Positions 1,132-62,933 of a DNA stretch of 64,000 bases are shown here, in pieces. Positions within the stretch are counted from its first letter, which is position 1; every line of letters begins with the position of its first letter. A program made the translations under genes and the position numbers. The notes beneath the pieces are model-generated. The model searched no databases. It was not told the DNA's origin and saw nothing but the letters and a program-made list of their open reading frames with translations. Source of the DNA: Halisarca cf. caerulea (Eukaryota; Porifera; Demospongiae; Chondrillida; Halisarcidae); assembly GCA_963170055.1 (NCBI GenBank), contig CAUJGJ010000397.1, positions 12,015,301-12,079,300 of the forward strand, given 5' to 3'.

Positions 1132-2349
1132 TTGTTTGTCAAATTACAGTTGCTTACTTTACTGAATGAAGTGTATACATGGTCAAATTGTAAATTTTGT
1201 AGGGTTAACAACCCATTTAGAAAGCAAAATCCGCCTAAAAGGCCAAGATCAATATTCTCATTGAATAAAAGACAGCGCATCAAACGCTTCAGAAAGTTTA
1301 TGGCCAAGAGGAGAGCCAACAAGAGTAAGGATACTGATGATAAAATAGAGGACTCAGTTTCTGCCACATCGTCCACAAAAATAATGGAACAGTACCTACT
1401 GCTACCTGGTGAAAGTTTGATTACAGATACTCCATTTTCACTTGTCAATGATCTTGCCTTGAAAACAAGTTCTGATGCCAATCATTCTGGTGAATGTACA
1501 CATCAGCTCAAACCAAAATTAGCTTTCCCTATTTTAACCCCACCCAATTCAACTGACCATAATACAACCTTGGAGTTAAACAGTGAATGTGCTGAGCAAG
1601 TGAAATTCACACACAACATTCACCAACAAGATCTAGAGCTATCAATTGATACAGATTCACTGTCCTCACCTCTGTCATATGGCTTAGGTAAGCTATATGT
1701 CAGCAAACCTGCTTTTGCATGGAGCACAGTAATGTTAGACAATATAGTATATTACTGTACCTCAGGAAATTTTTGTGGTTATTTAATTTCTCAGTTTGAA
1801 TTCAGGGATTCATCCACAAACTTCAATGAAAATATAGTGTTCTTTGGGTTTTCAAGCTTTTGAGGAACATACTATTATAGATACATATGACAAGAATGAA
1901 TGTATAATTATATCTTTGTCAATAGATAGTCTTCAAGCTTCCATGACAGTATCAATTAAAGACATTGAAACAAACTTCTCTGCAGAAAGCCATGCACTTT
2001 TTAATCAACGAATGACCCCCAAAATTGAGGCTCCACAAAATTTTTGAACCACAACAATTTCCTGATATTATACATTATAATTTTAATGATAAAGTATAAT
2101 TGTGCATCATCATGATTATGCATGTAGGATCTACTTTTCCTGGTGATGATCATGAGGACTCAGAGAATGATAGGACAAATGTATTGGATTCAGGAGATCG
2201 ATTAAATATGGAGATGTATGGGCTAGTTCCTCCAAAGGTTTTTTTTGAGGATCCAAATCATCCACACTTGGAGGAAGTACCGACAAAACCAGATGTACTG
2301 GAAATGCCAGAGAATGTGGCCTGGCGAAGGGAAGCCAATAGGATTGTAG
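1132..2349 (+). pseudogene. Left part of an unrecognised gene split by a transposon
   Basis: Three adjoining open blocks look coding but lie in different frames: 1132-1863 (basic, Lys/Arg-rich start, then Ser/Thr-rich), about 1856-2047, and about 2128-2349 (acidic, ending near RREANRIVVK). A plausible intron runs from GTAAGC at 1688 to an AG at 1856 and joins the first two blocks in frame. I found no clean intron joining the second and third, so a frameshift or a missed exon is possible. The last block stops at a TTAA (2350-2353), where a Kolobok-type element begins, and resumes in the same frame after the second TTAA (6007-6010). I do not recognise the family; it could be a host gene or an older transposon. 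Confidence 0.5.
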
Positions 2350-2353
2350 TTAA

Positions 2354-5300
2354 GGGGGCGGGTGCACTTTTTTGGCTGCAACAATAACAAATTTTATGGG
2401 TCCGATTCGGATTACTTGCAAGGCGAAAAAAACCTTTAAACCAAACACACAATGGCCCAATGTATGTAGAATACTTCTGTAGCTTCAATTTACCATTTCG
2501 CCGTTAGCTTTACTGAGTAGCGGCTTCCAAAAAAACGAGAAAATTTGGACTTTGTGGCGTCTGACGCAGCCGTTTTACACACTACGTAATAATTACAGCG
2601 TTTTCTGTGGTTGACTGTGGTGTCGTCATCAGTACACGAGAGCTTTTTCCTGAAATGTCTAACAGGAAATGCAATAAGTGCTTCCTTCGTATCAATGTAG
2701 AGTACATGGGAGCTGATTACAACACCATTGCGCAACTGATTCACAATATCTCTCGTATAAAGATTACATGTACATGTAGCATTGTGTATGAGAACTTCAC
2801 AGGAAACAAATGGTCATTATAAGAAAATGAGACGACACAAACTAAAGTTATAATAAATAGCCAATATTGTGTTATTATTTTGTGACGTCATGAACGGAAG
2901 TAGGTTCTCGAATAGCCTGTCCGCGTGGATGGCGAGGAGCTGCAAGTTCGGGAAGAATCGCCGTCGAGTAAAATGCTGCGATTTTGGCTTTCGACTGCTC
3001 CCAGAAGCTGTCATCGAAGACGATACGCTCCACTGTCATACCGTTCGGCGTCCAAACAACGAAGTCACACCAGGACCGCTTAGTGATAGCCATGGCACCT
3101 TGAACCTGATAGAAGTAATCATGGGAGCGTTTTAACTCAGGTTTCTTGGAGTCACCAATTCGGCAGAAGAAGGATTTAGATTCCTTGGCAGCGTCTTCAG
3201 GATTTAATCCTTCTTTTGCTATCTTGTGAGGGCATTTAATCTCCAGGATGCCACAGTCGGGAACAGAGCCAGGAATTTCCACCAAGCCATCGGGACTACA
3301 CGCTAAACAGGGATCTTCAAGGCTGATAACAAGACCCGAGTCTTCGACACAAGCACCGGCATGTCCTTCGGTACGTAAATACTCCAAATACTGCTTCTTC
3401 GCGTCCACCTCGTGTGCTGATCCCCATCGTGTTGCCTCTGTGGAGAATGGCTTGCCATAAAGAAGAGATTTCACTAGATTTGCAACAGGTGTGGTTGACC
3501 TGCGCTTGGAGACTTTGCCGAAGTTGGAAGATGTTAAACGCAATTTTCTTTGCTGGTGCCAAAGACTGTCATCTGCCTGTTGCCGAGTGTTTTGCCCAAT
3601 GTACAGGCCTCTGTCTGCAGAGATAACAACCTCTCTCTGGTAGAACTCCTGGCAGAGTTGGAGAAGCTCAGTGGATGGTAGGTCGTCCTGCTGAGCATTG
3701 GGCCCATAGCTGTTGTCAGTTGGTGCTGCTGAGTTGATGCGAACACTTCGGCGCTGTGCCTTGTACTGTTGTGTGCCCTTCCTGCTGTGATCGCGTCTTT
3801 TCTGTTCTGCCTTGGATGATGTGTGGCTAAGTAGAACAGTTCCGGGTGTCGAGTGGGTAGCTTTCTGCCAGAAGGATACAGGCCAGGTTGGTCCATGTTG
3901 AGTAGCAAGAGCTGCAGCACTACAGCGATGTTGAAAGGACCCATGCTGAATCCTGTTGAAACACTTGCCTCCATCAAAAAGGCAACGGATGGACATATAG
4001 CACTCAGCTAAATTGCTGGTCTGGTTAGCTATGAGTTGGGGTGCCAGGGAAACAATGCGATCACAGCATTGTGACACTGCATTGAAGAGACCGTCTGGGA
4101 GGGTATTCATGGAAGATGGAAGTCCACCTTGAGCTGCATCCTGCTCATCAAGTTGAGTTGCCTGCAGCTGTTCACTCTCCATATCTTCAGCTATCATCTC
4201 TATCTGTTCCCGCAGACTGCTTGGTTCAGAGGTGGATTGGGTCGTGCCATCCTCCATTAGATCCGCATCTCCTTCTGATACCATAACCGTTGTAACAGTC
4301 AATGGCTGGTAGGTGCAGAAGTTTGAACTACATTGGGTGTGATCACCAAACACATGCGATGGACCATTGCGTAGATCGTGACGCAGTTGAGCGATGTTGC
4401 CTGTGATGCTGTGTTTGGCAATCGCAACTCTTGCACCTACAGTCAGCCTCTGGATGATTCGTTTGGTCAAACCTCCCTTGCCTCGAAAGTGTGGGTTGTC
4501 CTTGGCCACATTTTCAAGTCTACTTCTGTAGGCCTTACATGCATGGTTTGCACATTCAATTTTGGTGACATATATACCATATGGCACAGCCTGGCGAATT
4601 GATGTCATAACTGAGCTGTCCCCATCACCTATCACCGACATGTATCGCAAACCATACATACTCTCGGACAACGAAAAACCCTCAGCAATGATGTCACTCT
4701 CCATTGAGGATGAACTACCACTCCAGTTACGGTAGCACTTGTGTTGCGGAACCTCAGCTTTCTTGTTGGTTGCTGTGGCACAGACTGAGCAGAATTTGTT
4801 CCGGACACCCAGGAAAAGCAACTTCTTAGTATAGCTTCCAAAAATAACTGCGACTCCACTCTTGGCGTTGTAGGAGTGTTTGTGGCTTCTCTTCGACCAT
4901 CCACCGTCTACCACAACTGTGATCGCTGGAATTCCATGATGGATGCAACCTGTGGATATGGCATGCATCTTTTCTTCCTCTGCAGCTTCTCTCATTGACT
5001 CTGCTAGCTGTTTTGTCATTTCTGATCCAATGAATTCCTCAATCTCTGTGAACATCCTCCTGTACATTCCTGGAACATCCATCATGGCAAGTGTGGTATT
5101 GAGTTGTGCTAGACCCCCACCAGTTGACATTTCTCCTAGAACCGCTCCGATGTTGACAGACCATTTTTTGCCTTCTGCTGTTTGCACACGTGGTGATGTC
5201 CGAATTGAGAAAATCTTGTGGCATTTTGAACATGATGCTTGCAAGATGACAGCAAGTCCAGAGTGCATACTCTCTCCTTCAATGAGGCATTTCCCTCCAC

Positions 5301-46554: not shown

Positions 46555-47421
46555 TTATGAAATACAGTTCCGCCTACTCCAAATCTGGAAAGATCCAATG
46601 ACGGCATCGGTGGCAACTTCCCTTAGGAACATCTGGTAGGGTGCTGACTTGATTCTCAAGAAGGAACGAAGAGGCTCAAAACTAGATAAGTCAATAAAGC
46701 CTCTGGAACCAACTTGTAAGGGCAAAACAGTGCAAGAATATCCAGAGGACTGGATGTGCTCACTCAAGTCAACATATCGAAGCATTTTCCTCTCCAATGC
46801 TCTGTCCGATATGGTATCAAAAAAGACTGTAAGTTCAATCAAGAAACACTTCTTCTTGTCTGTGTTCCATATCACAATATCTGGTCTGAGATCAGAGATG
46901 AGGAAGTCGGGGCGATTGTATGGACAATCAGGGAGATCTGCTATTAGGTGGTAATCACTACAGTGTGACTCAATAATAGATTTAATACGGGTAAGTATGG
47001 TGTTGTGCCTGTTGTCATAGCGCCATTGGTTGAGGGAAACATTGCAATTGTTCAGTACATGTAGGAGGGACTGAACCTTACCACAGAGAGGGCAATTACT
47101 GGATTCCAGCTTCTTCCACTTGTGAAGATTCTTGTTGTGTGGCAAGGTATCCAGAGTGGCTTTCAATGCAAACTTGAAGGAGAAGTCAGGAAGAGCCTGA
47201 ACAGCAGCAATCCATATGCTGTAGCAACTACTGTCAACAGAGCGAAAGCATTCCCCTTGCATCTCGAGAGACTGCAGATGGTGTATACGAGAGAGGTCAT
47301 CTGACTCTGTAACTGTTGACTGTGACAATCTTTTGAGGGCTGCACAGGACATACCAGGATCATGCACTAGGTAGTCTCGGACAACAACAGAGGGCAGGAA
47401 TGCAGAGCCTGTTGTGTGTCG
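46555..47421 (-). pseudogene. C-terminal part of an RLE-type LINE ORF
   Basis: The frame reads from about 47421 (one TAG near the start) to 46555. It contains ALPDFSFKFALKATLDTLPH, a CCHC finger (CPLCGKVQSLLHVLNNC) followed by RYDNRHNTIL, then RPDIVIWNTDKKKCFLIELT, RALERKMLRYVDL and LPLQVGSRGFIDLSSFEPLR. CCHC plus RPD ... ELTV ... K..RY is the restriction-like endonuclease end of R2/NeSL/HERO-type LINEs. The 5' side stops exactly where the AAATCG arm begins at 47422. Confidence 0.7.
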
Positions 47422-47890
47422 GCCTTATGGCAAGCCATCAGTAACAAAACTCGAAGACGTTGGAAATGGAATCTTAAATCGTCGTGAGGCGTGGAAAACG
47501 ATTTAAGGCTGACGCAATACGATTTGGGATCGGCCAAAACGATTTGGGATGGATTTAAACTCCAAGACATTGGAAATGGAATCCTAAATCGTCGCAAGGT
47601 GACGGAACGATTCAAGGCCGACACAAAACGATTTGCGATAGGGTCAAAACGATTTGGGATGGATATGCAGAGTTTTGGAGTTAGCGACGATTTAGGAAGA
47701 CTTGAAAACGTTTTAGGAAAGTGATACAACGATTTTGTGATCAGTTTAAAACGATTTGGAGCCGCTTATTGGCGACGTTTCAAGTTTCAATGCAGTGATA
47801 TGCTAGCGACGATTCAGATCTGAAGGACTTTAAAACGTTTTGGGACACTGTTTGACACGACGATTAAGGGAGACAGAAGACGTTGAGGAT
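47422..47890. repeat. Left arm: AAATCGTTTT-word array
   Basis: About 20 occurrences of AACGATTT or AAATCGT variants in 470 bp, in both orientations, built from two units of about 115 bp plus diverged sequence. The word AAAACGATTTGGGAT recurs several times. Confidence 0.9.
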
Positions 47891-48840
47891 TAATTGGTGA
47901 ATCTGAGCATGCGCAGTAGTATATTCTTCCACGTGTTTGTCATTCTATGACCCTGGCAAACAATTCAAGGAGCTGAGTTGAGGGTCTGGCTAGTACTCTA
48001 CGTAAATATCTGCTTATAGAATTGCTAGTTGCCCTGTCTATCTCCGGCGATTTTTTGCGATGTCCATTGGTTGGCAAGAGTTTTTCAGGGAATTAGAAAG
48101 CCTTTTGAATGAATTTACCAACAGAGTGAATGAATCCAACGAAGCTTATTGTGAGTACGCCATCGGTAGATGTGACATTGCCATTCGATCTATTTCTGGA
48201 GTAGAACTAAACGCTGGCCAACTCTTGAGAGGTGAAACCGAGCCCGAAGATCGCGAGCAACTGCAAACCATATTACTTAATTCAACGCTGCTTTTGTCTT
48301 CATTAAGAAATATTTCTTTGCTTTGGGAGGAAAAATTAGAAGTTTTATCCGTGCATCCACCTCCTCGTCGTCCTCCCTTAACTGCAAGAAGACTCCCTGG
48401 AAGGCCCAGTTTTGCCATAAATCCCGAGCAGGTCTTGCTTCTGGTAGAAATGTCTTTCTCTTGGGTCCAGATTTCCAGATTGCTTGGCATATCCAGGCAA
48501 ACCCTTTGGAGACGTAGAATTTTGTGGGGCATGCATCACATTCAGAATACTATTAGTGATGAGGAACTTGGCAGCATCATTCAAACTGTGCGTCAAAATC
48601 ATCCGCAGATGGGAGAAACAATCACCACTGGAATTATCCATTCAATTACAGGGTGTCGAGTGTCCAGACGTAGGATTAGGAGATCTATCCATGTTGTGGA
48701 TCCATTGTTTACATCCTTACGTTGGCGGAATGGATTGGTCACTCGGAGGCCATATTCTGTTCGAGGACCAAACGCTTTATGGCATATTGGTATGTCAATA
48801 CAGTACAATGATTGTACTATTATTTGACAATGGCATATTG

Positions 48841-48841
<1 letters not shown>

Positions 48842-48887
<46 letters not shown>

Positions 48888-48900
48888 ATATATATATATA
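48842..48900. repeat. CTAT and TA microsatellite
   Basis: About eleven CTAT units, then a TA run ending at the left tip of the DUF7869 element. Confidence 0.95.
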
Positions 48901-51635
48901 TGTGAGGGCATCAAGTAAAAAGGAAATCTTGTGCACAATAACATATTTTGACATTTCAATGTATTTCAGTAAAGTGATCCTTCAACTACCTAATACCAAG
49001 TTTTGAGTTTTATTCCAGCTGCTAAAATGGAAATAATACCCTTTAACTCCGGGTATCAATCGCATCAAGTAAAAAAGCACATGTCACCGATGCATGTTCT
49101 TTGAATAATTTTTGAAATCTTAAAGCACTTACATGTATTAAATATCAAAAACATCTATATAGGCTATTCTAATTGTTCATGGAAGTCTAAACAGTAGAGT
49201 TTGGCTGACGTTCAACTGGTACAAAATTGGTGTACATTTGTTTCAGATGGGCGGATTTTGTGGCAGATATACTCTTTACTTTTTCACGGCGTTTGTATGT
49301 ATCACCACTACAAGGCATTGCCATTTCATTTGTGACATGACCCTTGGACACTTTTAATGGTGTTTCTTCAAAAGGCCCCTCGTAACAGCGTTCACGTATT
49401 TTCATTATGGCGTTATTCGATATTGGATGGCGAACAATTAGGAAGTCGTGAAGGGAACGTATTCCTGGTAGTTTCGAATACTTTTCCTCTGTTTTTTCCC
49501 TCCATGTCTTCACAATGTCTCCATCATCAATCACCACTGAAGAATAGTTTGAAGCAACTGATTCAAGTTCAGTAATGTTAAAAACATCACTGCACGAGTA
49601 GGTTTTTGCAACTTTGGAAAAAACACGATCTGGGGCAAACTTAGTGTGGCCTGCAATAAGGAAAGATATTCGAAAGTAGTCGAGAATCTGATGTTGCACT
49701 AGTTCCATAGCTGCTGACATCAGATGGCAATTTTTATTAGTGCTTCCAGCGTTGTCTAGGAACAAGTGTACCCGTCGAACCCATGATGGAAAATGATCCG
49801 ATTCTTCAATGTAGTGGCAGAGGTAACTCAAAGTGTGCTCTGTGTTCTTGGGACCAATTGTTTCATTAAAAAGGTACATATGAGCTGACTCATCCCTATG
49901 ATCCACCAGGCCAAAAAGATCAATAGACAACTTCTGAAGGTAGTATGTACTACCTGGCTGTGGAGAATGTCCCCAGTGCGGTATCAATTTTGACATTTGA
50001 TAGTCTGCACTCAAAGCAAGAGTGAAAGTATGTTTCAAAGCACTTAGTGATTCTGAGTCAGGCTGTGCATCAGTTAGCTCTTGAATCTTTGCCCATTGTT
50101 GCTTACATCGAGCAGTCATTTCGTTGTAGAAATCACGTGATTTAGCAGCTTGCTCTTTGTGCATGGCTAAAGTATCCTCTGTCGTCCTGATATCGCTTTC
50201 CAGCTTCCTCTGTTCTTCTTCCTCAACAGATCCAGTGTGTCGCTTGCGCTTGAGTGATGTCTGAATCCCACTGATGGTTTCCTTCAATCGGGCACAAGTA
50301 TCGCAATAATCAGCTTTATGTGGGTAAATACTTAACTTGGGTCTCTCTGCTTTCAGCCATGCAGAGACACTACCATTTGAACAAGTTCCTCTACCCCTCT
50401 CCCCTTGTACCCGATTAAATACTCCAACAACAGATTCCTCAATTCGCTGGTTGTAATGGTGTACCCCTTTCTTAGGTATTTGGATGGTCTTGAAGATTGG
50501 GAGGAAGTAGTGGGTGGAACTAGTGCTGTCTTCACGACGTCCATTAGGCTGGCTATTGATGTCAACAAAGTCTAGAAAGTCTGCCTTGACAGACGTTTTG
50601 GCCTGATTCGACGTTCTTCCAGCAAGACCATGGCGCTCGTGAGGGTAGCGAACAGCAACAAGCGTTTCCTGATCAAGTGAATTCCACCATTGCACAAATG
50701 CAATATCACAGCCAGGGGGCATGACAACATATGGCCCTAACTTCCCCTCCTCAACAGCTGATTTTGACATCTCTCGTATAGGTTCATTGAACTGTGCCCT
50801 TTTCTGTGTGCGCAAACGTGAAAGACGCTTGGAAGAAATGCCCAGAGTTGTACGAATGCACTTGGTACAAAAGAGGAAGTTGCCCATGGGATCAAAGATG
50901 TTGTTGCGTAGCCACTCATTTTGCTTGACAATGTCACGACAATGCTGAAAGTTAGGCTTACTTGGATGAGGGCTAATGATCTTCCTCCTCTTTAGCTCAC
51001 TGCCCTGCCTCAGAAGACCTTTGAAGGTTTCTTCATATTTCTGGAGCACAGGAGCACAGCTGTTGCACGCATCAGGACTAGGTGGTGTTTTCCCATCAGA
51101 CGCTGATGAAAGGGAGCCATCCAATGACGATTGTGAAACCACTGAAGAGTAGGGTTTTCTAGCGCTTCCTTCCAGGAAAATCCTGCGCTTTCGTACCCTT
51201 CTTGTCTCCTCGTCGCTCGCATTATCGTAAGAATGGTCCGAGTAACTGCCATCTGAATCGGAGTAACTAGTTTCCGAAGCGGATGATTCTTCAACTGGGA
51301 TCATAACTGCCTGAAAACTGTCTGATGTAGGTGATCCTGGGTCCCTTATAGGGGTACTTGATAGCGGTAACGAAGAAGCCATGCTCGAAACGTACGAACG
51401 AGACGAAAGTTTTGCGAAGCCTAACAAATAATCAAACTACGGCAAACTCGCGCCAAAACTAGCAGTGTCTTAGTTCATACATGGTACTACCCACTGCTAA
51501 ATTACAGGGTTTCACTCGTTACCATCAGCATCCGTATAACCTAAAACTCCACAGCTAAAATCGGCCATTTTGTAGCGCGATTTACAAAAAATCATGTATG
51601 TGCATAAGATTTCCTTTTTACTTGATGCGCCCACA
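48901..51635 (-). mobile_element. DUF7869-type DNA transposon, copy 1, in an AT run
   Basis: Tips read TGTGAGGGC-ATCAAG on the left and TGTG-GGCGCATCAAG inward from the right; both continue as AAGTAAAAAGGAAATCTT and RTGCACA, giving about 34 bp of inverted repeat. A subterminal echo (CGCATCAAGTAAAAAAG) lies at 49062. The flanks are TA runs on both sides, so a TA-type duplication is possible but cannot be resolved. One long ORF fills the interior. Confidence 0.85.
49187..51427 (-). CDS. DUF7869-family protein, probable transposase
   Basis: About 746 codons, no lesion. N-terminus Ser/Asp-rich (SDSDGSYSDHSYDNASDEE) with a basic stretch; Cys pairs at LFCTKCIRTTLGIS and YCDTCARLKETI; a coiled coil (SVEEEEQRKLESDIRTTEDT). 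The conserved C-terminal domain has YYLQKLSIDLFGLVDHRDES, VRRVHLFLDNAGSTNKNCHL and FLIAGHTKFAPDRVFSKVAK. The acidic residues in IDLFG and LFLDN plus GHTKFAPD make a plausible RNase H-like triad (inference). I know this signature from many unannotated invertebrate, algal and oomycete proteins. Its terminal repeats here support a role in transposition. Alternative: a passenger gene. Confidence 0.75.
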   Translation of the reverse strand: MLGFAKLSSRSYVSSMASSLPLSSTPIRDPGSPTSDSFQAVMIPVEESSASETSYSDSDGSYSDHSYDNASDEETRRVRKRRIFLEGSARKPYSSVVSQSSLDGSLSSASDGKTPPSPDACNSCAPVLQKYEETFKGLLRQGSELKRRKIISPHPSKPNFQHCRDIVKQNEWLRNNIFDPMGNFLFCTKCIRTTLGISSKRLSRLRTQKRAQFNEPIREMSKSAVEEGKLGPYVVMPPGCDIAFVQWWNSLDQETLVAVRYPHERHGLAGRTSNQAKTSVKADFLDFVDINSQPNGRREDSTSSTHYFLPIFKTIQIPKKGVHHYNQRIEESVVGVFNRVQGERGRGTCSNGSVSAWLKAERPKLSIYPHKADYCDTCARLKETISGIQTSLKRKRHTGSVEEEEQRKLESDIRTTEDTLAMHKEQAAKSRDFYNEMTARCKQQWAKIQELTDAQPDSESLSALKHTFTLALSADYQMSKLIPHWGHSPQPGSTYYLQKLSIDLFGLVDHRDESAHMYLFNETIGPKNTEHTLSYLCHYIEESDHFPSWVRRVHLFLDNAGSTNKNCHLMSAAMELVQHQILDYFRISFLIAGHTKFAPDRVFSKVAKTYSCSDVFNITELESVASNYSSVVIDDGDIVKTWREKTEEKYSKLPGIRSLHDFLIVRHPISNNAIMKIRERCYEGPFEETPLKVSKGHVTNEMAMPCSGDTYKRREKVKSISATKSAHLKQMYTNFVPVERQPNSTV

Positions 51636-51665
51636 TATATATTATAATATATTATAATTATATTA

Positions 51666-51797
51666 TATGTGTGTGTCTATCTATTTCATTATCTATCTAT
51701 AAAATATCTGTGTGTGGTGTGTGCATGTGTGTGGTGTGGTGTATGTGTATGTGTGTGGTGTGTGGTGTGGTGTGTGTGTGTGTGTGTGTGTGTGTGA
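51666..51797. repeat. TG and CTAT microsatellite
   Basis: Imperfect TG, TGGTGTG and TCTAT tracts in the integrase intron. Confidence 0.85.
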
Positions 51798-52703
51798 TAT
51801 TGTATATAACTAACTGTGCATTGACGTATTTTATTTTATTCTTCCTCAGTATAAATATTACCTTAATAAGTACCTTTATTTGATAATGTAGATGGACATC
51901 ACAAGCTTGTTCGCTGGAGATTTGTGGTGCATGCTGGTATTGATGGATACAGTCATCTAGTTACCTACATGAGGTGCAGTACAGACAACAGGGCAGCTAC
52001 TGTCTACAGGCTTTTTATTGATGCAGTTAGGCACTATGGACTTCCAAGAAGGGTTCGATGTGATCAAGGCCGAGAGAATATAAGAGTTGCAGAGCATATG
52101 ATCCAGTATCAAGGAAGTAATTGAGGGAGCATCCTGGTAGGTAGCTCAGTCCATAACCAAAGGATTGAAAGACTATGGAGAGATATGCATCGCTGTACAA
52201 CATCTGTTTACTACCGCCTATTCTACCACCTGGAACAAACTGGGCTTTTAAACCCTTTGAACAACCACCATTTGTTTGCTCTGCATTACATATACCTCCC
52301 TAGAATTAACCAATCTTTAGACATTTTCTGTGATGGCTGGAATAATCACCGTTTGAGATCGGAACATCATTGGACACCTCTACAGTTATTTACAGCAGGT
52401 GTTATCGAACAGGAGAGCACTGAGTCTGAAGATGCTGAAATGGATTTGGACCAACTATTAGATTATGGAGTAGAAGAAGCTGGAATTGCACCAGCACGTG
52501 ATGATGAACATGATGAAGGAGTGCCTGTCCCATCAGTGAACATTTCTTTAACTGAATCACAATTGGAAAATTTAAGGAACACGGTTGATCCACTAGCTGA
52601 AAGTGATTCCTATGGCATTGACTTGTATCGACAAACATTGACTTTCATTCAGTGACTTACTCTTTTTGAAAAATTGTTTTTAAAACTCTGAGTACATGGT
52701 CCA

Positions 52704-52790
52704 TAGTCTCGTTCCCAGACCCACTTCCGGACACCATTCTATAAATATTCTGTCATCTTCGCATGTGCAGTGGGTCTGGGAATGAGACTA
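52704..52790. mobile_element. Mutator-like MITE, 87 bp, 9-bp target duplication
   Basis: Ends TAGTCTCGTTCCCAGACCCA and, inverted, TGGGTCTGGGAATGAGACTA. Flanked by perfect 9-bp direct repeats CATGGTCCA (52695-52703, 52791-52799). Nine-base duplications are typical of Mutator-like elements. Confidence 0.85.
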
Positions 52791-52799
52791 CATGGTCCA

Positions 52800-52952
52800 T
52801 GGATCGATACATGGCAGGAGTCCTGTTACTAGCTGTATTGCATGTGTATATACATATTATATGATTTCAATGAATGAATTGATTGTGCTTACCTATATTC
52901 GTATAGTACACACACACACACACACACACGCACGCACACATGCACATACACG

Positions 52953-52995
<43 letters not shown>

Positions 52996-53585
52996 CATAC
53001 GTACAGCACCTGGCTGAAAGATCCACGGACCATATGTATGTAGAACAATGAACTTTGGCCAGATTAGAGAGGTGGTTGGAATATAGACAGGTTCAATCAT
53101 TATAATATGCATGGGTGACTTTTGGAAACATGCAAGCAGTATGATGTATGGTCATTTTATACAGTCTGCATGCATGAACATTGAGGCTCAGATTATCAAG
53201 GTTCTATAAGGTGACTACTGACACAGGCCGCAGTTCCATGCTCTGTATTTTGATGATGAACGTGCAAATATTGTAACAATTCTCGCAGGGTTTCAATTAA
53301 TGCATATTAATTGTCAGCACCAATATAACACACTAAAACAATGTCATATAATAGTAGTAATAATATCGGTAATAACATAGAAATGGTATAAGTTTGATAT
53401 ATATAGCTGCAGTTATTATAAGACTTAGTAGAAAGAAAACTGCCATGTATAAGTAGCAAACGAAGTGACAGATCGATGCATGTACGCCCTAACCTATAAA
53501 CTTAAGTATATAAGTGTGCAAATGGTATACAGTTATACATGTAACAAAACAAGTATAAAATGAGCAGACTGTCAGGCCTAACTAC
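52800..53585. other. Spacer between the convergent integrase and HECT genes
   Basis: A CA microsatellite (52908-52993) and AT-rich sequence. No gene. Confidence 0.7.
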
Positions 53586-55568
53586 TCAAATGGCATCCAT
53601 TTGCCAAGCTACATCATCGCACTGCAGAATAGCCAGAAATTCATGTTTGAAATCTCCATATGAGCAGTATGATGATGGCAACTCCAGGCAGCTACTACAT
53701 GTGTGGCTAGTTGGTCGTCTAGCCAGTCCTTCAAGACTATTGAAACATACACTAATGTGAACAGAGCTGCTTACTGCACTACCTGTGGTGAATTGAAGAA
53801 AGGATCGCAATTCATCTTCACGAAGACTTCCAATGAATTGTTGCAGGTATCCATAAACACGCTCTTCATTCAGATTGCTAGTTTGTGGATCATCCAACAT
53901 AGCGAGAACTTTTGATGCTGATACCTGCTGCGCTCTATATATGGAATGAATTTCCTCACATGTCAGCTTGTCCCAGAATGGCCTATGTAGGTCTGGTATG
54001 GCAGACTTCATTTCTGAAATAAAATAAGCAGGTTTCTGTAGAAAATAATGGTTAGCAACACTGATGAGAATGTTCAGTAACGTTGCAGGTTTCGGAGTTT
54101 CGCAAACACTGTATCGGCTCAGTATAGTGATTAGTCCCATCTGCACTGCTGACACAAAGGTACTCTCAGCCTGTTTGACAACTTTCAATGCCTCCCTGCA
54201 TATGCATGCATCATGTGGGCTGAGGCTATCAAGGAAAGCTTCCAGCATCAGCTGATTTGGTAGATCCTTCAAATTTGGCAAAAGTATTGAAGCCAAAGTG
54301 GGGAAGGCTATCTTAACTGGGAGCATTCCTGCAACCATATAGGCATGTGAAAAAATGGCCCCCAGTGCTGAAAAAGGTGGCGAATAAGTATTAGGGATGT
54401 CCACTGGGACCAGGAGTGATGCTCCATCAAAGTGTTTCACATATGCCTCTTCAAAGAAGGCTGAAAACAAATTGCGTGTAACCCCCCCAACATCTACAGC
54501 ACGTTCCCCTTCAAAACTTGTTCGAAATGGGAATTCATCAAGAATACGGGCAAGATCTGTGCTGTAAAGCTTGATTACATCTTCATAGATGTGTGAACGC
54601 CTCACTGTGTGTGTTTTGCCATAATGGAGTGCCAGGGAACTCATAAATGTAGTTCTTCTACTGTCAGCTGCAGCAAATTACATATGAAATTCTCATAATT
54701 ATATATATATATATTACATATGTATATATATATATTTATATGTATACTATATATAATGACATATAGACTATAAATTCAAACAATTCACTTACTACGTATT
54801 TTAAACTACATATACCTTTGTTAAGGACATCAAATCCATCTGCAATGGTGATATCTGTACCCTGGTAGTACCTTGTCTATAGCTAGATCACCCTACATGA
54901 GCACATATATAGTTGGAAAGAAACTCATGACATGTAAATACTGTTTACATATAACATAAAAGACTGACGTTTTATAATTGCACAACTGCTGTCATTAAAT
55001 TTTACAGTATGGCAAGTATTTCATATGACAGAGAGAATGCCGTACATAATATATTATGCATAAACCTATTGCAGCTGCTGATCCCATTGTAGACATTCAT
55101 GCATGCATGTGTGCACAAACCTCTTCAATACTTGGTAGTATACCTTCCTGCTGTAAAGTTGCTTCTTCCCAAATTGTGTGCTTTGGAGAATCATCTGAGT
55201 AGCATAATGACAGGTGATAGTAATATTCTTTACAAACCCTAGCATATTAAGTCTTAGTCTAATCCATGTTAAAACGTCAATGTTTTCACGTAAACAGCGA
55301 TTTATCACAACCAACAAGAAGCATTCACTAACTCAACAGGTTCACATGTTCATGCTGGTCAACCACCTCGTTTGTACACTTTACACCCTGGAAGTAAAAG
55401 AAATTTATGATAATTGTAGCATGCATGTGTCCATAATAATTATGTTGTTGAATGTTAATAAAACATGCAATGCCGTGTGACTGTTTGAATTAACTTAAAG
55501 GTCAGTTGCTCATGCATGCAATTGGCTACTGGGCAATTAAGCTACACTGCACCTTTCATGCATGCAAC

Positions 55569-55635
<67 letters not shown>

Positions 55636-57498
55636 ACAAACACATGTACAATTATAGTTATGATCACCGTTTGCTGCTGCCCTATAACACATACAGGCAA
55701 GTCTTCTTCCTCTGAATCAGTAAGAACTGGCACATGCTCCTGTAAAACATGCAATGAAATATCTTTAACACAGTGTCTACCTGCACACGAATCCACGTAT
55801 AGGCATTTCTTTTAACCCTTTATTGTCGACGAGCCACTATAGTGGCTCAACCCGTGGTTGTGGAAGATGACGAAAGTTTAGCGCATTTTGTTCAAATTTT
55901 ATACGAAGCATATACGTAGCAATAGTAACACACTCTGTAAGTATGAACCTTCTAATATGGGTTATAACGAAGTTAGAACACATACTAAAAGTTATCTTCG
56001 ATCCCGTTTTATGGTGTTATGCAATAAATATACGATAATTTCCCGAAAAATCCTAGTTATGCGGAATAAAAATGGCGTTCTTTAATGTGGTTCAATCTAA
56101 AATCAGGAACTACGCAGAGAGAATGGGATCGATTTCCTTACTTTGCTCGCCGCTGTACTTGGTTTACTTCCTGGAAAGAATTGACGAGCTATAATGGCAG
56201 ATTAGGGCGCTCCGAAGATTGTCAACGTCGAAGGGAGTGACGCTCACAAATCACAGGAAAGGAGGCACACTGTTAATGCTAGTTTGTCCTTTCCGCTTTC
56301 TAGAGAGGTACTGTGCCATCGTTTCTCAAGCCAGATTAATTCTGAACTCGTTTTTGTCATCATCTACCTGTTCCTGAAACTCGTCTGATGCAGCAATACG
56401 CATACGGTAGGCTTAGGATTTTGTGTTTTTCTAGCTTTCGTGATACTATTTTTGTTATCTATCGCTTATGTTGATACTAGCAACATGTTTTAACTTTCGT
56501 TAGATGATCAATTGAGCCAGTAAACATTTAATTCGTTCTTAAAATGACAAAAGAAGTAAGAGCCACTATAGTGGCTCGTCCACGATAAAGGGGTGATTGC
56601 GCAATCATATCTTCCACAATAAAGGGTTAATGAATTACTTGACATACATATTTCAGAATCCTAAACTATGTGACATACATACATTGAGTCAAATGCTAGC
56701 TATTAAAACAAACAAAACTGACTTGTTCGACAAACTGGCAAAGATATAGGCCTCCCCTACGATCAATGGCAAATTCTGCAGACAAATTCGTTTCCACAGA
56801 AGCAATACAAAGCTTATTCTTGGCCACACAATCCAGCAGCCTCCATTTCTGCAAACTTGGCTGTAAGTTGCTGAAAGCACAACGTATTGCTTCCTCAACT
56901 TCAGGATCTGTTGCATGCCTGTAAATAGGTACTTTCGTTATTCTTCCACACTTCTCCAAGGCATTTCGCTGCTTGCCCTTTGGCACGGATCCTTGATTAG
57001 TCAGTAAGATAACTACAGTGATGGACACAGGTTTCGGCCTAGCAGATTTCTTCTTCCGCTTCTCATCTGACACCATGAGGTCAGCACTAGGCTCAAATGT
57101 CCTCTTACTCTTTCCCTTGGATGAGTTGCTTGAGAACAACGAGGAAACTGTTTTTTTAGTAAAAACTGATGCTTTGGCCTGCTTTAGGTTTGACACAAGT
57201 GACAAGGATTTTTTGGTCTGGGTCCTGAGGGCCTGTTCGGAAGTGAGCTGTTGTAACTGTTTCCCTGGTTTCGATGTCTCCTGCTCAGTCAAACTAGGTA
57301 TCAACCGTTTGATCTTTTTGTATGGGCCAAGTGCATTCACAAGACTGTGCAGCTCAGAATCGGTTAACCTTAAGAATTCATCTCCATCTATATAATTATC
57401 TAACATTTAGGGAGAACATGATGATTTTAGTTAGTAGAGTGTGATATATTTTCAAGTTTTTGTGAAATGACACACACACACACACACTCACACCATGG

Positions 57499-57565
<67 letters not shown>

Positions 57566-57582
57566 ATCCACACACACATACA

Positions 57583-57628
<46 letters not shown>

Positions 57629-57644
57629 CACACACACACAACAT

Positions 57645-57702
<58 letters not shown>

Positions 57703-57996
57703 ACTCGCACGCCAGATCTGGAGGGGGGAGGCTGGATATTAATTACCTCGGAATGGAGTGACAAGTATTTCTGGAATCCCATTGCTCTCCAAAAATTTGC
57801 TTAACTCCGAGCAGTTCATCCCAGCTGGTGAAGAAGTTACAAGTGATGAACTGGGAATAGCAGGTTGATCCAACGACTCGCAAGGCATTTTGCTGCTGCA
57901 TGTGGAAGGAGGGTTTACCTGCTGAGAGGCTTCAGGCTGCTGAGAGTCCTGTGAAGGATCTGGCAAATCTTGATCTCTTATTTCGTCGTCCATCAA
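53586..57996 (-). CDS. SAM-HECT E3 ubiquitin-ligase-like protein, multi-exon
   Basis: Supported exons: 57996-57747 (donor GTAATT), 57399-56723, 55739-55695 (EHVPVLTDSEEEDLP), about 55220-55117 (SDDSPKHTIWEEATLQQEGI), about 54870-54820 (YQGTDITIADGFDVLNK) and 54667-53586. A SAM domain spans the first junction (CSELSKFLESNGIPEILVTP ... IDGDEFLRLTDSELHSLVNA). A basic linker and a domain seen in fish G2E3-like proteins follow (DPEVEEAIRCAFSNLQPSLQ). The HECT N-lobe has FPFRTSFEGERAVDVGGVTR; the C-lobe has RRPTSHTCSSCLELPSSY with the expected catalytic Cys in HTC. No lesion seen. It should pass ubiquitin to target proteins; how that serves the element is unknown. Convergent with the integrase. Confidence 0.75.
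55570..55634. repeat. CA microsatellite
   Basis: A pure ACAC run in a HECT-gene intron. Confidence 0.95.
55816..56626. mobile_element. piggyBac-like MITE, 811 bp, in a HECT-gene intron
   Basis: TTAA at 55812-55815 and 56627-56630. Tips are CCCTTTATTGTCGACGAGCC and, inward from the right, CCCTTTATTGTGGAAG. A perfect 18-bp palindrome GAGCCACTATAGTGGCTC occurs near both ends (about 55831 and 56562). No coding sequence. Confidence 0.85.
57469..57705. repeat. CA microsatellite
   Basis: Long interrupted ACAC tract in the first intron of the HECT gene. Confidence 0.95.
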
Positions 57997-58069
57997 TCAA
58001 TATTCACACTACCGGGCTAACACGTGGAAGAGTATACTACTGCGCATGCTCAGATTCACACATTAATCC

Positions 58070-58662
58070 TCAACGTCTTCTGCATCCCTTAATCGTCGTG
58101 TCAAACAGTGTCCCAAAACGTTTTAAAGTCCTTCAGATCTAAATCGTCGCTAACATATTACTGCATTGAAAAATCTCGCAAATTATAATAATAAGCGGCT
58201 CCAAATCGTTTTAAAGTGATCACAAAATCGTCGTATCACTTTCCTAGAACGTTTTCAAGTCTTCCTAAATCGTCGCTAACATGCTGCACTCCAAAACTCT
58301 GCAAATCCATCCCAAATCGTTTTGGCCCTATCGCAAATTGTTTTGTGTCGGCCTTGAATCGTTCCATCGCCTCGCGACGATTTAGGATTCCATTTCCAAT
58401 GTTTTGGAGTTTAAATCCATCCCAAATCGTTTTGGCCGATCCCAAATCGTTTTGCGTCAGCCTTAAATCGTTTTCCATGCCTCACGACGATTTAAGATTC
58501 CATTTCCAATGTTTTGGAGTTTAAATCCATCCCAAATCGTTTTGGCCGATCCCAAATCGTTTTGCGTCAGCCTTAAATCGTTTTCCATGCCTCACGACGA
58601 TTTAAGATTCCATTTCCAACGTCTTCGAGTTTTGGTACTGATGGCTTGCCATATGGCCTTAT
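58070..58662. repeat. Right arm: AAATCGTTTT-word array with 119-bp tandem units
   Basis: Three tandem units of about 117-119 bp (starting near 58289, 58406 and 58525), each holding CATCCCAAATCGTTTTGGCC, GCCTTAAATCGTTTTCC and GACGATTTAAGATTCCATTT. It mirrors the left arm. Confidence 0.9.
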
Positions 58663-58795
58663 GGCAAGCCATCAGTAACAAAACTCGAAGACGTTGGAAA
58701 TGGAATCTTAAATCGTCGTGAGGCATAGAAAACGATTTAAGGCTGACGCAAAACGATTTGGGATCGGCAAAAACGATTTGGGATGGATTCTAGAC
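58518..58795. repeat. Near-perfect palindrome of two arm ends, about 130 bp each side
   Basis: The right arm meets a second, opposite-facing copy of the arm end at GGCC (about 58661). The two halves differ at only a few bases (CATGG against CATAG; GGCCAAAA against GGCAAAAA). The outer half stops at 58790-58795 against the dispersed repeat. Confidence 0.85.
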
Positions 58796-59284: not shown

Positions 59285-61687
59285 TGTGACAGTTCACGCG
59301 AAAAGGTGCATTCGTGTGTCCGTTTATCAATTGTGAAATTTTGCAGCTCTCGCAGGTTCTATGGAAGATGCATCATTCTGGCACCCTGTTGGGTCCCAAA
59401 TCCATTTTATGAATTAGAAATCAGTGTTGAAAGAATTGTTATGAATAATTCATGCGAACTATAAAGGTATTCATGATCCTAATAATTATATTCATAGGTT
59501 ATGAATATTAATGTTAGTATAGAAATATGGCTGATCTAAATGAGATGTTAGGTTCTATTGTCACTATGAGGTAAAAAAAAATAAAATTAGAACGTGGTAA
59601 GTAGCTACTACAATGTTATCCACAGATTCTGAAATATAATACTTACTCTTAGACTAAAACAATATTAGAACATGCCACAAAACAAATAAGTTTTGCATGT
59701 ATGTAGTTGGCTGTATAATATTATGTTACTTGCGGTCACTTGGACCGCTTTGTCTTAGATGAGGCAGTTTTGGAGGCTGATCGCTTTCCACTAGTCTGTG
59801 TAGCAGTGGAGTGCTTTGGAGCAAGAGGTTTGGGGCATGTGAGGTCAGCAGCAAGGTTCAAAGAACAAAATTGTCGGATCTTCTCATACAAATACCATTG
59901 TCTATCCACGGTGAGACCTGAAGGTACAACCTCTATGGGGAATTGGGATGGCGTTGGTAAGATAGAGGAGGGTCGCTGGATGGTGAACTCTTGATATGAA
60001 GGGTCTGTTGATCTGCACTTCACAAACACTGTGCCAGGCAAGTCACAATCAAAGTAAAAGACATGGTAAGATGTAATGGATGGCAGTGATGTGAAGAAAA
60101 GAGAGAAGAACTCAGACCAATTGTAAAAGTGGACAAGTTGGTCTCCACTTAGATTCCTCACAAGCTGCACTCTGTTGGCACCCACATGTGAAGAATTCTT
60201 CACTGCTTCTGCAATGCAGCCCATGGTGTCCATTCGTGTCCTGCGGTACGACTTCTTCAACAGGCCAAAGTGGCGATCGGGAGCAAACTTGGTGTGGCCA
60301 GGCATCATAAATGATAGGGTGATGTGCTTATGCTTCCCAGTAATGACCCTCCATGCAAGATACTGGATGGTGGTGTTGTTCTTGTTTTGACCAACACAGC
60401 CAGCAATCTCTCCCGCTTCTCCTCTGGCAGATGCCCAGTGTTTGTGATGGCCTTACACAAAGTCTGACACTCGAGACAAAGATCATCAGCTGGCTTCATT
60501 GTACAGATGTAGGGGCGCAGTGATGTCCAGACCGTATGGAACTTTGTTCTTCCTACAGGAGTTGCTTGGGTGGTGGCCGTCGAGTCAAGATACATCCGGT
60601 ATAGCTTGGCTTTCATCATGTCGGTTGGAAGAAGCAAAACACGATCATCCCGGTGACTAGGTAGTCGACCTGGTAAGGGATTGCATGTGTCCGGGCCATG
60701 TTGTCAATAAAGTCTATCAAGCTGTCTAGCTGTTCACTGGTGCAGGTGTTGTGGGCATGCTTCTGAGCATTGCCATGTACCCTCTCTAGCAAACCGTGCT
60801 CATCAAAGTGATGGCAGATGTTCAAGAAGCAGTGCTTGGACATGATGTGCAAGAACACAAACATGTCCAAACATATACGAATGGCACGAAATAAAAAATT
60901 TGTGTGTGGTCGAAAGTTATCAACACTACCACGATATGTGGGGGGTATGGAAGCCTTGTGGGTACGAAAGGCAGACAACTGGCCAGAAACTACCAGGTCT
61001 AGTTGTTCTCTGGTCAAAGCAAAGCAATCAGATCTATAGTCCTTAACTACTTCTTTGCTGAACAACTTACTACATGGAGTTTTGGCAGGCCCACCTTTGC
61101 ACCCACAAGTCTTGTCCATGAAAGCATTGACGACACTATCTTCCCTCTTATCCTTGTCACTGAGCTCAAAAGGAATGACTGACTGATCCAAGGAAGCGAA
61201 AGACCCAGTAGCCGGTACTATCGGCGATTCGGGAGGCTGGAAATCGTCGAGAAGGGAGTTATCCTCATCCACAAAACTCGAGGCCATAACGGGAGGCCGA
61301 GACAGATCTGAAGTGTCAAGGCGTTCTGTGTCCTCAGTACGTTCGCCGTCAGACTCGATGTTAACTCGCTCAACTCTTTCTTCGAGAGGAGAACTGCCTT
61401 CAGCTTCTTGAAACTCCTTTTCCAATGCCTCTAACATGTCTTCGATAGATAAGAGGGACATTATTAACCGTAACTATATCACCGAAAGTCGTATGAACAA
61501 GCAACAAACACGAAGAGAAAGAGCAGGTCCTCGCTGACAAGATACGAGTACTCGCCTCGTGCTCGCTACACGCACTTCCGAGTCATTTGCAGTGGTTCAC
61601 CACTACTTCTGCATATTTACGTTTTTTGCACTTCCTGAACAATTTGTGCGAATTGCACAAATATACGTTTTCGCGTGAACGGTCACA
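59285..61687 (-). mobile_element. DUF7869-type DNA transposon, copy 2, in an AT run
   Basis: Tips TGTGACAGTTCACGCGAAAA (59285-59304) and, inward from the right, TGTGACCGTTCACGCGAAAA (61687-61668), 19 of 20 matching. AT runs lie directly outside both ends (59272-59284 and 61688-61706); the left one is the AT run of dispersed repeat B. The encoded protein is from the same broad family as at 49187 but only distantly similar. Confidence 0.85.
59736..61461 (-). pseudogene. DUF7869-family protein, internally deleted
   Basis: ATG at 61461. Acidic N-terminus, then the typical Cys-rich block (CGCKGGPAKTPCSKLF), YRSDCFALTREQLDLVVSGQ and HHFDEHGLLERVHGNAQKHA. A one-base deletion near 60675 shifts the frame into LPTDMMKAKLYRMYLDSTAT ... 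CLECQTLCKAITNTGHLPEE. Then EKRERLLAV runs straight into QNKNNTTIQYLAWRV in another frame (junction about 60395), so the stretch holding the first catalytic-type segment is missing. The end is present: MMPGHTKFAPDRHFGLLKKS to a basic tail (GKRSASKTASSKTKRSK) at 59736. Non-autonomous. Confidence 0.8.
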
Positions 61688-61985: not shown

Positions 61986-62933
61986 TTAATAGTGATTGAG
62001 CAGTTGGAAAACTGAAAAGCTGGAAAAGGTATGTTTTCCTGTCCAATTTGGGAAAATACGCTGAAGTTTCCCAAGCTGACTTGCTGCACAATGATCTTGC
62101 ACTTGTACATTAGAATCCTGGAGTACATCCTGTTTAGTTTGAGTCTGAGGTACTTGGCCTTGTGCAACTTGACTCAGCATTTGCAGCTGATCATTGCCAA
62201 CTCTCTTATACTTCCTCACACCATCAGTGCTACGGTGCCCAGTTTTGGTCATTATGAGCTGTTCATCAATGCCATTTTGGAATAATCTAGTAGCAAGTGA
62301 CACCCTTAGAGAGTGATTGGTTTTGAAACCTTGTATACCTGCAGTCTTGCACATTCGTCCAATTGTCTTGTCAAGACTATTGTGTCCAATTGGTACATTA
62401 CTGAACCAGACATCATCCTTTGGATCTTTGAGTGGTTGAAGATAAAATGAATTTCCTGGTCTGCTTGTTGAACATCGCTTGTCATACTCTTTGAAAACAC
62501 GCACAATACACCTGTGTGGATTTTCTACATTCTCATGCTGGACAACCGTTTTCGGTTCAATCTTTCTCATTTTGATACCTCCTTGGTTGTTTTTAGACAC
62601 ATCTTCAATATACTTCAAGTAACTTCTCTGTAGAGGAATCTTGGAATCAGCAGGGATTTCAACCAATGACAATTGTGAATTGTGCCAATGAAGCTGTCGA
62701 TGCTCCTGTCCACCACGCAAACCAAAGCACATTCCTATGAGAAAAAACATGGTATCAGCAAGAGCCTGAGGACTATGTGTACCAAGTACACCACATTTCC
62801 ACATGATATTCTCTTCTTCAGCTGTTATTGGCTCTGCCTGTCTTTTGGCATTTCCCAACCCTTTGGGTTTGCTATCCTTTATTTGAGCATCCAAACTACC
62901 CCGGAAATCACGAAATTCTGGCTGCGTGAACAA
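61986..62933 (-). CDS. Crypton-type tyrosine recombinase (DUF3504-like), 5' partial
   Basis: 315 codons from the first ATG; the frame is open a little further (AEWNLFTQPEF) up to a stop, so the usual N-terminal DNA-binding part is absent. Motifs: KGLGNAKRQAEPITAEEENI, GLRGGQEHRQL (R73), TNHSLRVSLATRLF (H207, R210), IMTKTGHRSTDGVRKYKR (H233, Y242). All expected tyrosine-recombinase residues are present. This is the Crypton/KCTD1/ZMYM-type group. A missed upstream exon or 5' truncation explains the short N-terminus. Confidence 0.75.
   Translation of the reverse strand: MFTQPEFRDFRGSLDAQIKDSKPKGLGNAKRQAEPITAEEENIMWKCGVLGTHSPQALADTMFFLIGMCFGLRGGQEHRQLHWHNSQLSLVEIPADSKIPLQRSYLKYIEDVSKNNQGGIKMRKIEPKTVVQHENVENPHRCIVRVFKEYDKRCSTSRPGNSFYLQPLKDPKDDVWFSNVPIGHNSLDKTIGRMCKTAGIQGFKTNHSLRVSLATRLFQNGIDEQLIMTKTGHRSTDGVRKYKRVGNDQLQMLSQVAQGQVPQTQTKQDVLQDSNVQVQDHCAASQLGKLQRIFPNWTGKHTFSSFSVFQLLNHY

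Follow-up and report, generated by a model that had tools for sequence, protein, structure and literature searches.

The window analysed here, a stretch of 64,000 nucleotides from the sponge Halisarca cf. caerulea, contains a DNA transposon at positions 47426-58653 (11,228 bp), with inverted arms of approximately 0.5 kb and TATGG..CCATA ends that lie within 10 bp of the limits proposed in an initial annotation (47422-58662). The left terminal inverted repeat (47426..47937, plus strand, ~512 bp) begins with TATGGCAAGCC and contains repeated AAAACGATTT-like units, and the right terminal inverted repeat (58019..58653, minus strand, 635 bp) terminates in GGCTTGCCATA. Both arms open with TATGGCAAGCCATCAGTAAC and are complementary at 95-97% in ungapped pieces and at 91-92% in a gapped alignment, the right arm being longer than the left because about 131 bp are duplicated within it. 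Each of the mirrored arms leads, as had been described, into one gene, and the two genes point inward from both sides. The element is flanked by 6-bp target duplications, CGGCCT on the left (47420..47425) and TGGCCT on the right (58654..58659), which differ by one mismatch. The left copy falls within a LINE-like (zf-RVT) remnant (46555-47367) hosting the left end of the element, and the homology of three LINE relatives breaks off at 47419-47422. These relatives give the left junction only and a complete empty site was not obtained, because the right flank of the window has no LINE continuation.

The gene entering from the left is an integrase with two exons on the plus strand. Exon 1 (48060..48789) includes the HTH region and ends with the residues WHI and a GT donor, and exon 2 (51892..52655) contains the catalytic core, where the DDE residues initially placed at 244, 301 and 336 were all found, with D244 at the exon junction followed by D301 and E336. 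An in-frame stop at residue 321 leaves the window integrase, when read normally, without its last catalytic residue, and the part after the stop matches rva_4 (PF24764) with E=1.9e-23. Because of this stop the window copy is probably dead, and we regard it as a probable inactive relic. Integrase proteins matched rva_4 with E=9.2e-67 and 1.1e-78, and an HHCC pattern was absent upstream of the DDE core in the two proteins checked, one from each of the two classes described below.

A search of the 194-Mb genome with the arms returned one other full element, C369:5003468-5010935 (7,468 bp), with inverted arms, both genes tail to tail and a perfect CGCGCG duplication on both flanks, so that copies of the arms elsewhere do hold the two genes together. 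The two copies are 97-98% identical in their main blocks and differ mainly in that the second copy lacks window positions 48902-51634 and 55811-56635. Its integrase has no stop and is 497 aa long, and exon 1 of its HECT gene is disrupted by a repeat. The first of the missing stretches (48902..51634, ~2.73 kb) is a nested insertion in the integrase intron, edged by a 54-nt inverted pair (48886-48937/51599-51652) and containing a DUF7869 gene on the minus strand (49187..51427, 746 aa; PF25273, E=2.8e-16); it is possibly a separate, little-described DNA transposon. The 11-kb element initially described is a genuine element, the length of which has been inflated by this insertion, and the second stretch (55811..56635) likewise has no counterpart in the 7,468-bp copy. 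To the right of the element, the window contains a second DUF7869 gene, in pieces (59736-61461), and a DUF3504/tyrosine-recombinase gene (61986-62933; E=6.9e-33 and 2.6e-10) that we take to be Crypton-like.

The gene entering from the right lies on the minus strand, and its model consists of exons 1, 2 and last only, the middle exons not having been placed. Exon 1 (57747..57993) provides the start codon and the first part of a SAM domain, exon 2 (56735..57399, its 3' end guessed) the rest of SAM, a basic EKRKKKS stretch and a conserved middle region, and the last exon (53586..54667) a HECT domain (PF00632, E=1e-5) with the HTC motif. SAM_1 was matched with E=3.5e-7 on the spliced exons 1 and 2, exon 2 alone falling below the curated cut-off. 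All the parts of the SAM-HECT protein with HTC reported in the initial annotation were thus recovered. The H and C of the motif are invariant in all 34 aligned relatives, PF00632 matches 33 of these 34, and a KRKK-type basic stretch occurs in nine of ten aligned relatives. The HECT profile also matches HECT ligases of solved structure, one of these across nearly its entire length. By its HECT domain with the catalytic cysteine, the protein fits a predicted ubiquitin ligase.

G2E3 proteins have PHD/RING fingers ahead of the HECT domain, and G2E3-like HECT proteins are numerous in some animals. Pfam matches to PHD or RING were absent from the pieces scanned here (the 304-aa N-terminus and the last exon), which instead contain SAM and HECT; by those pieces the protein would not be G2E3, with which it shares the HECT catalytic domain. 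A fish repeat of unclassified type with a G2E3 match, mentioned in the available text of PMC5638112, fits the presence of HECT genes in transposons and proves nothing.

Considering its TA..TA ends, its 6-bp duplications and its integrase-type DDE transposase without HHCC, the element fits the IS3EU/GingerRoot superfamily, a filing based on structure. These three features are the marks of the superfamily in the available text of PMC10045372, and fungal IS3EU ends are given as TAYGG..CCRTA in that of PMC12730594. The ends TATGGCAAGCC, TATGGCACGCC, TATGGAATGCC and TATGGGGTGCC, with their complements, fit both patterns. IS481EU, Ginger1 and Ginger2 have related integrase-type transposases, with duplications listed in PMC10045372 as about 4, 15 or 25 bp for IS481EU (ends TNT..AYA), 4 bp for Ginger1 and 4-5 bp for Ginger2. 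All three were rejected on the 6-bp duplications found here, and Ginger1 also on its HHCC domain. The ends, the duplication and the HHCC-less transposase are shared with IS3EU/GingerRoot as described in the available text, whereas the sponge element has a SAM-HECT ligase as second gene and arms of up to ~0.5 kb. The view that no named superfamily has this pair of genes does not hold for the integrase, which fits a named one. The HECT partner was not found described for IS3EU in the open literature searched (Repbase was outside the search), and we take this partner to be the new part. The fungal TET+ IS3EU elements, according to the available text of PMC12730594, carry a transposase and an alpha-kinase in opposite orientation with TET/JBP between them. 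They resemble the sponge element in belonging to the same superfamily and in having a second enzyme gene opposite to the transposase, but have the alpha-kinase and TET/JBP where the sponge element has HECT.

The pairing of integrase and HECT genes extends over the genome. Sequence searches found 24 matches to the last HECT exon and 74 and 107 to the integrase exons, while family searches gave 143 matches for PF24764 and 98 for PF00632; merging left 114 loci for the integrase and 78 for HECT. A tail-to-tail HECT gene was present within 2 kb at 41 of the 114 integrase loci, one further locus having a same-strand HECT gene, none a head-to-head one and 72 none at all. Controls made by rotating the integrase positions within their contigs, for which approximate lengths were used, and by drawing strands at random gave a mean of 0.39 and a maximum of 3 tail-to-tail loci (n=500). 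Within 8 kb, the corresponding numbers were 47 tail-to-tail, three same-strand, five head-to-head and 59 without HECT. The number of 41 is probably low because PF00632 is weak on these proteins; both copies of the window element score only E=6e-4 to 9e-4. Counting against the pairing, an integrase was absent within 8 kb of 27 of 77 HECT loci, a number computed with 98 of the 143 integrase matches. The unpaired integrase and HECT loci are in part accounted for by host HECT genes and weak detection.

At four loci, where ends were not detected, the two genes are oriented away from each other: C448, C369:1.44M and C66, which are about 99.5% identical, and C369:10.59M. This head-to-head class could not be bounded because its flanks read N. 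The near-identical loci are at C448:1484087-1491065, C369:1435476-1442502 and C66:801773-808203. Convincing arms were also not found at C142 and C369:4.5M, where the stretches examined contain N runs, nor within 6.5 kb at C369:2.19M. Giant open frames of 1,912, 3,641 and 5,327 aa close to some of the matches were dropped as large proteins, as they border N runs.

Searches for two types of end pattern gave 16 and 86 ends, with both control readings at 0. Neighbouring plus and minus ends, together with two elements on C40, defined 36 bounded elements; four of the 16 ends of the first type were left out (three unpaired, one belonging to the arm fragment described below), and integrase or HECT matches outside all 36 intervals did not enter the counts. 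Both genes were present in 17 elements, the integrase only in eight and neither in 11. Among the 19 elements of at least 4 kb, 17 contained both genes and the other two the integrase only, and none of the 17 elements below 4 kb contained both. The genes were tail to tail in all 17 two-gene elements. These 17 include two C129 copies that probably are one insertion assembled twice, because their flanks are identical. Together with the contig from an Iophon sample described below, these elements bear out the earlier proposal that integrase and HECT ligase travel in one transposon. Stops in the matched integrase stretch were counted by hand, and occurred in all six integrase-only elements below 4 kb versus four of the 17 two-gene elements, the subfamilies not being independent of each other.

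The flanks of nine elements were read for 6-bp duplications, which were perfect in seven (C369:5.0M, C168, C40, its small C40 neighbour, C305, C3 and C345), had one mismatch in the window element and were absent in C129. The C129 copy at 93709-102135 has 193-bp arms that are 100% identical, yet a 6-bp duplication was not seen; with its identical arms this two-gene copy looks very young. The elements fall into two classes. In class 1 (window, C369:5.0M, C129, C168 and C40), an intron interrupts the integrase at the first catalytic D, and the partner is a SAM-HECT protein with HTC. In class 2 (C3, C345 and others with TATGGGGTGCC ends), the integrase is intronless and approximately 400 aa long, and the HECT gene is more distant, with STC replacing HTC (PF00632, E=1.6e-12). 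As the pair occurs in both classes, it is either older than the class split or was built twice.

A scan of genome contigs returned only one relative. This contig, 8,233 bp long, is catalogued under a bacterial symbiont of an Iophon sponge, and we take it to be host (sponge) DNA. On this contig, the HECT gene (2135-3238, plus strand) is tail to tail with the integrase, with 185 bp between them, and the integrase exons lie on the minus strand at 4245-3424, 4822-4439 and probably 5747-5469. The end GGCGTGCCATA at 5893-5903 matches the C168 end; the other end is beyond the contig and the duplication is therefore unreadable. Two scans of viral contigs did not detect a relative.

As estimated from comparisons between element families, replacement changes in the HECT gene are, per site, far rarer than silent ones. 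For the last exon of the window and C448, pS was 0.80 (saturated) and pN 0.23, and the comparison of C168 with Iophon gave a rough dN/dS of 0.19 (dS 3.2); integrase comparisons gave similar figures. Between the window and the second copy, the HECT gene has about two silent and ten replacement changes, and no selection signal was seen, as expected for relics. Co-divergence of the two genes, a check proposed in the initial annotation, was found in part in the trees of ten paired loci. C168 groups with Iophon in both trees, with supports of 0.965 and 0.799, and HECT and integrase identities have a rank correlation of 0.48 over 45 non-independent pairs. In one well-supported conflict, however, the HECT of the window family groups with C448 (0.998) and its integrase with C129 (0.961), a conflict that we read as partner exchange. 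C448 belongs to the head-to-head class with unseen ends, and its integrase in the trees was taken from a near-identical copy.

Based on the ends, gene content and distribution of these elements, we consider it highly probable that they constitute a two-gene, cut-and-insert DNA transposon of the IS3EU type, in which integrase and SAM-HECT ligase move jointly. By analogy with the families, the transposase would bind the repeated arm units and join the ends to target DNA at positions staggered by 6 bp. It is less certain that the ligase works in the nucleus on behalf of the element, as its basic stretch, which resembles a nuclear signal, may indicate. The retention of the pair by related copies, both in the same genome and on the Iophon contig, suggests that the HECT protein serves the transposon.

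The joint movement of the two genes could be explained otherwise. Transposons capture host genes, and HECT might thus be a piece of a host gene that was caught once and has been carried without use, as might be expected from the existence of bounded elements with the integrase only (8 of 36) or without genes (11 of 36). We regard such a passenger as improbable, since the pair is found in two deep integrase groups that differ in exon structure and end sequences, as well as on a contig from another sponge, is always tail to tail in the 17 bounded elements and has a HECT gene whose replacement changes between families are far below the silent ones per site. The window is rich in nested repeats (the DUF7869 insertion, the LINE remnant and the tyrosine recombinase), so that two separate mobile elements, one with the integrase and one with HECT, could have become nested or adjacent by chance. 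This reading has next to no probability left, as the same order and orientation recur within 2 kb at 41 loci where 0.39 would be expected, and a single set of ends encloses both genes in 17 elements, which refutes it for the general case. Just as scant is the probability that HECT is mainly a host gene family beside which IS3EU prefers to insert. The HECT loci without a nearby integrase, several of which are strong (C400, C176 and C357), agree with such a preference, but in the bounded elements it is refuted by the position of HECT between the element ends, with the duplications outside both genes.

If the joint transposon reading is accepted, the substrate of the ligase is the main question of function. 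The most likely candidate, at somewhat below even probability, is a host factor by which the element is silenced or restrained. Accessory enzymes of other transposons, such as TET/JBP and SET, are thought to counter silencing (available text of PMC12730594), and this, along with the change of integrase partners by HECT, leads us to favour host restraint as the target. The alpha-kinase of fungal IS3EU, in a similar place according to the same text, further suggests that IS3EU has a slot for a host-directed enzyme. Less likely, the ligase might act on its own transposase or on the joined DNA-protein complex, the removal of which would finish the reaction after insertion or limit copy number. The RING finger of RAG1 has ubiquitin ligase activity and Chapaev transposases have RING fingers (available text of PMC4411706), which provides a parallel of ubiquitin ligases in transposition systems, although the RING is there inside the transposase and the HECT here is a separate gene. 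A partner-specific target would also explain why the integrase stays paired with HECT, whereas a host target agrees better with the exchange of HECT among families whose integrases differ. The remaining, smallest share of probability goes to another target.

Some elements directly abut one another. At C40:3548717-3557192, a complete element abuts a gene-free one of 1,820 bp in the arrangement CGACCG-element-CGACCG-element-CGACCG. In the window, a second arm is represented by a 130-bp fragment (58660..58789, plus strand), which opens with the TATGGCAAGCC start immediately past the right 6 bp and is thus set off from the element by exactly one 6-bp duplication (58654-58789); its identity is 97.7% to the right arm and 96.9% to the left arm. 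Such arrangements would result either from new copies that insert precisely at the duplication next to an older end, or from spacer-joined ends arising during movement. Circles of the bacterial IS3 family have abutted ends with a spacer of one or two bases (available text of PMC6350997) and are similar in the abutted ends and the spacer, the latter being 6 bp here compared with 1-2 bases there.

More tentatively, as a possibility that we rate clearly below even, HECT could be an ancestral and needed second subunit of animal IS3EU, and the numerous genes for integrase-core and G2E3-like HECT proteins in fish and invertebrates could largely be the two halves of such elements. The ligase would then remove a conserved nuclear restraint. 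In addition, the abutting arms with one 6-bp duplication would hint at insertion through circle-like forms or targeted to ends, which has its counterpart in bacterial IS3. A transposon lineage keeping its own ubiquitin ligase would give a handle on how animal cells restrain transposition, as one would expect the substrate to be either a defence factor or a part of the transposition complex. Such a lineage would also mean that many apparent host genes of the HECT and integrase-core families are transposon genes, a point of importance for annotation, and the conserved pairing offers a direct test of which functions a transposon requires in addition to its transposase.

Among the smaller elements, C305:61319-63920 (2,602 bp) is a near-perfect palindrome in which each arm contains the first HECT exon; it has a perfect GGCGCG duplication and is either a fold-back derivative or an assembly artefact.
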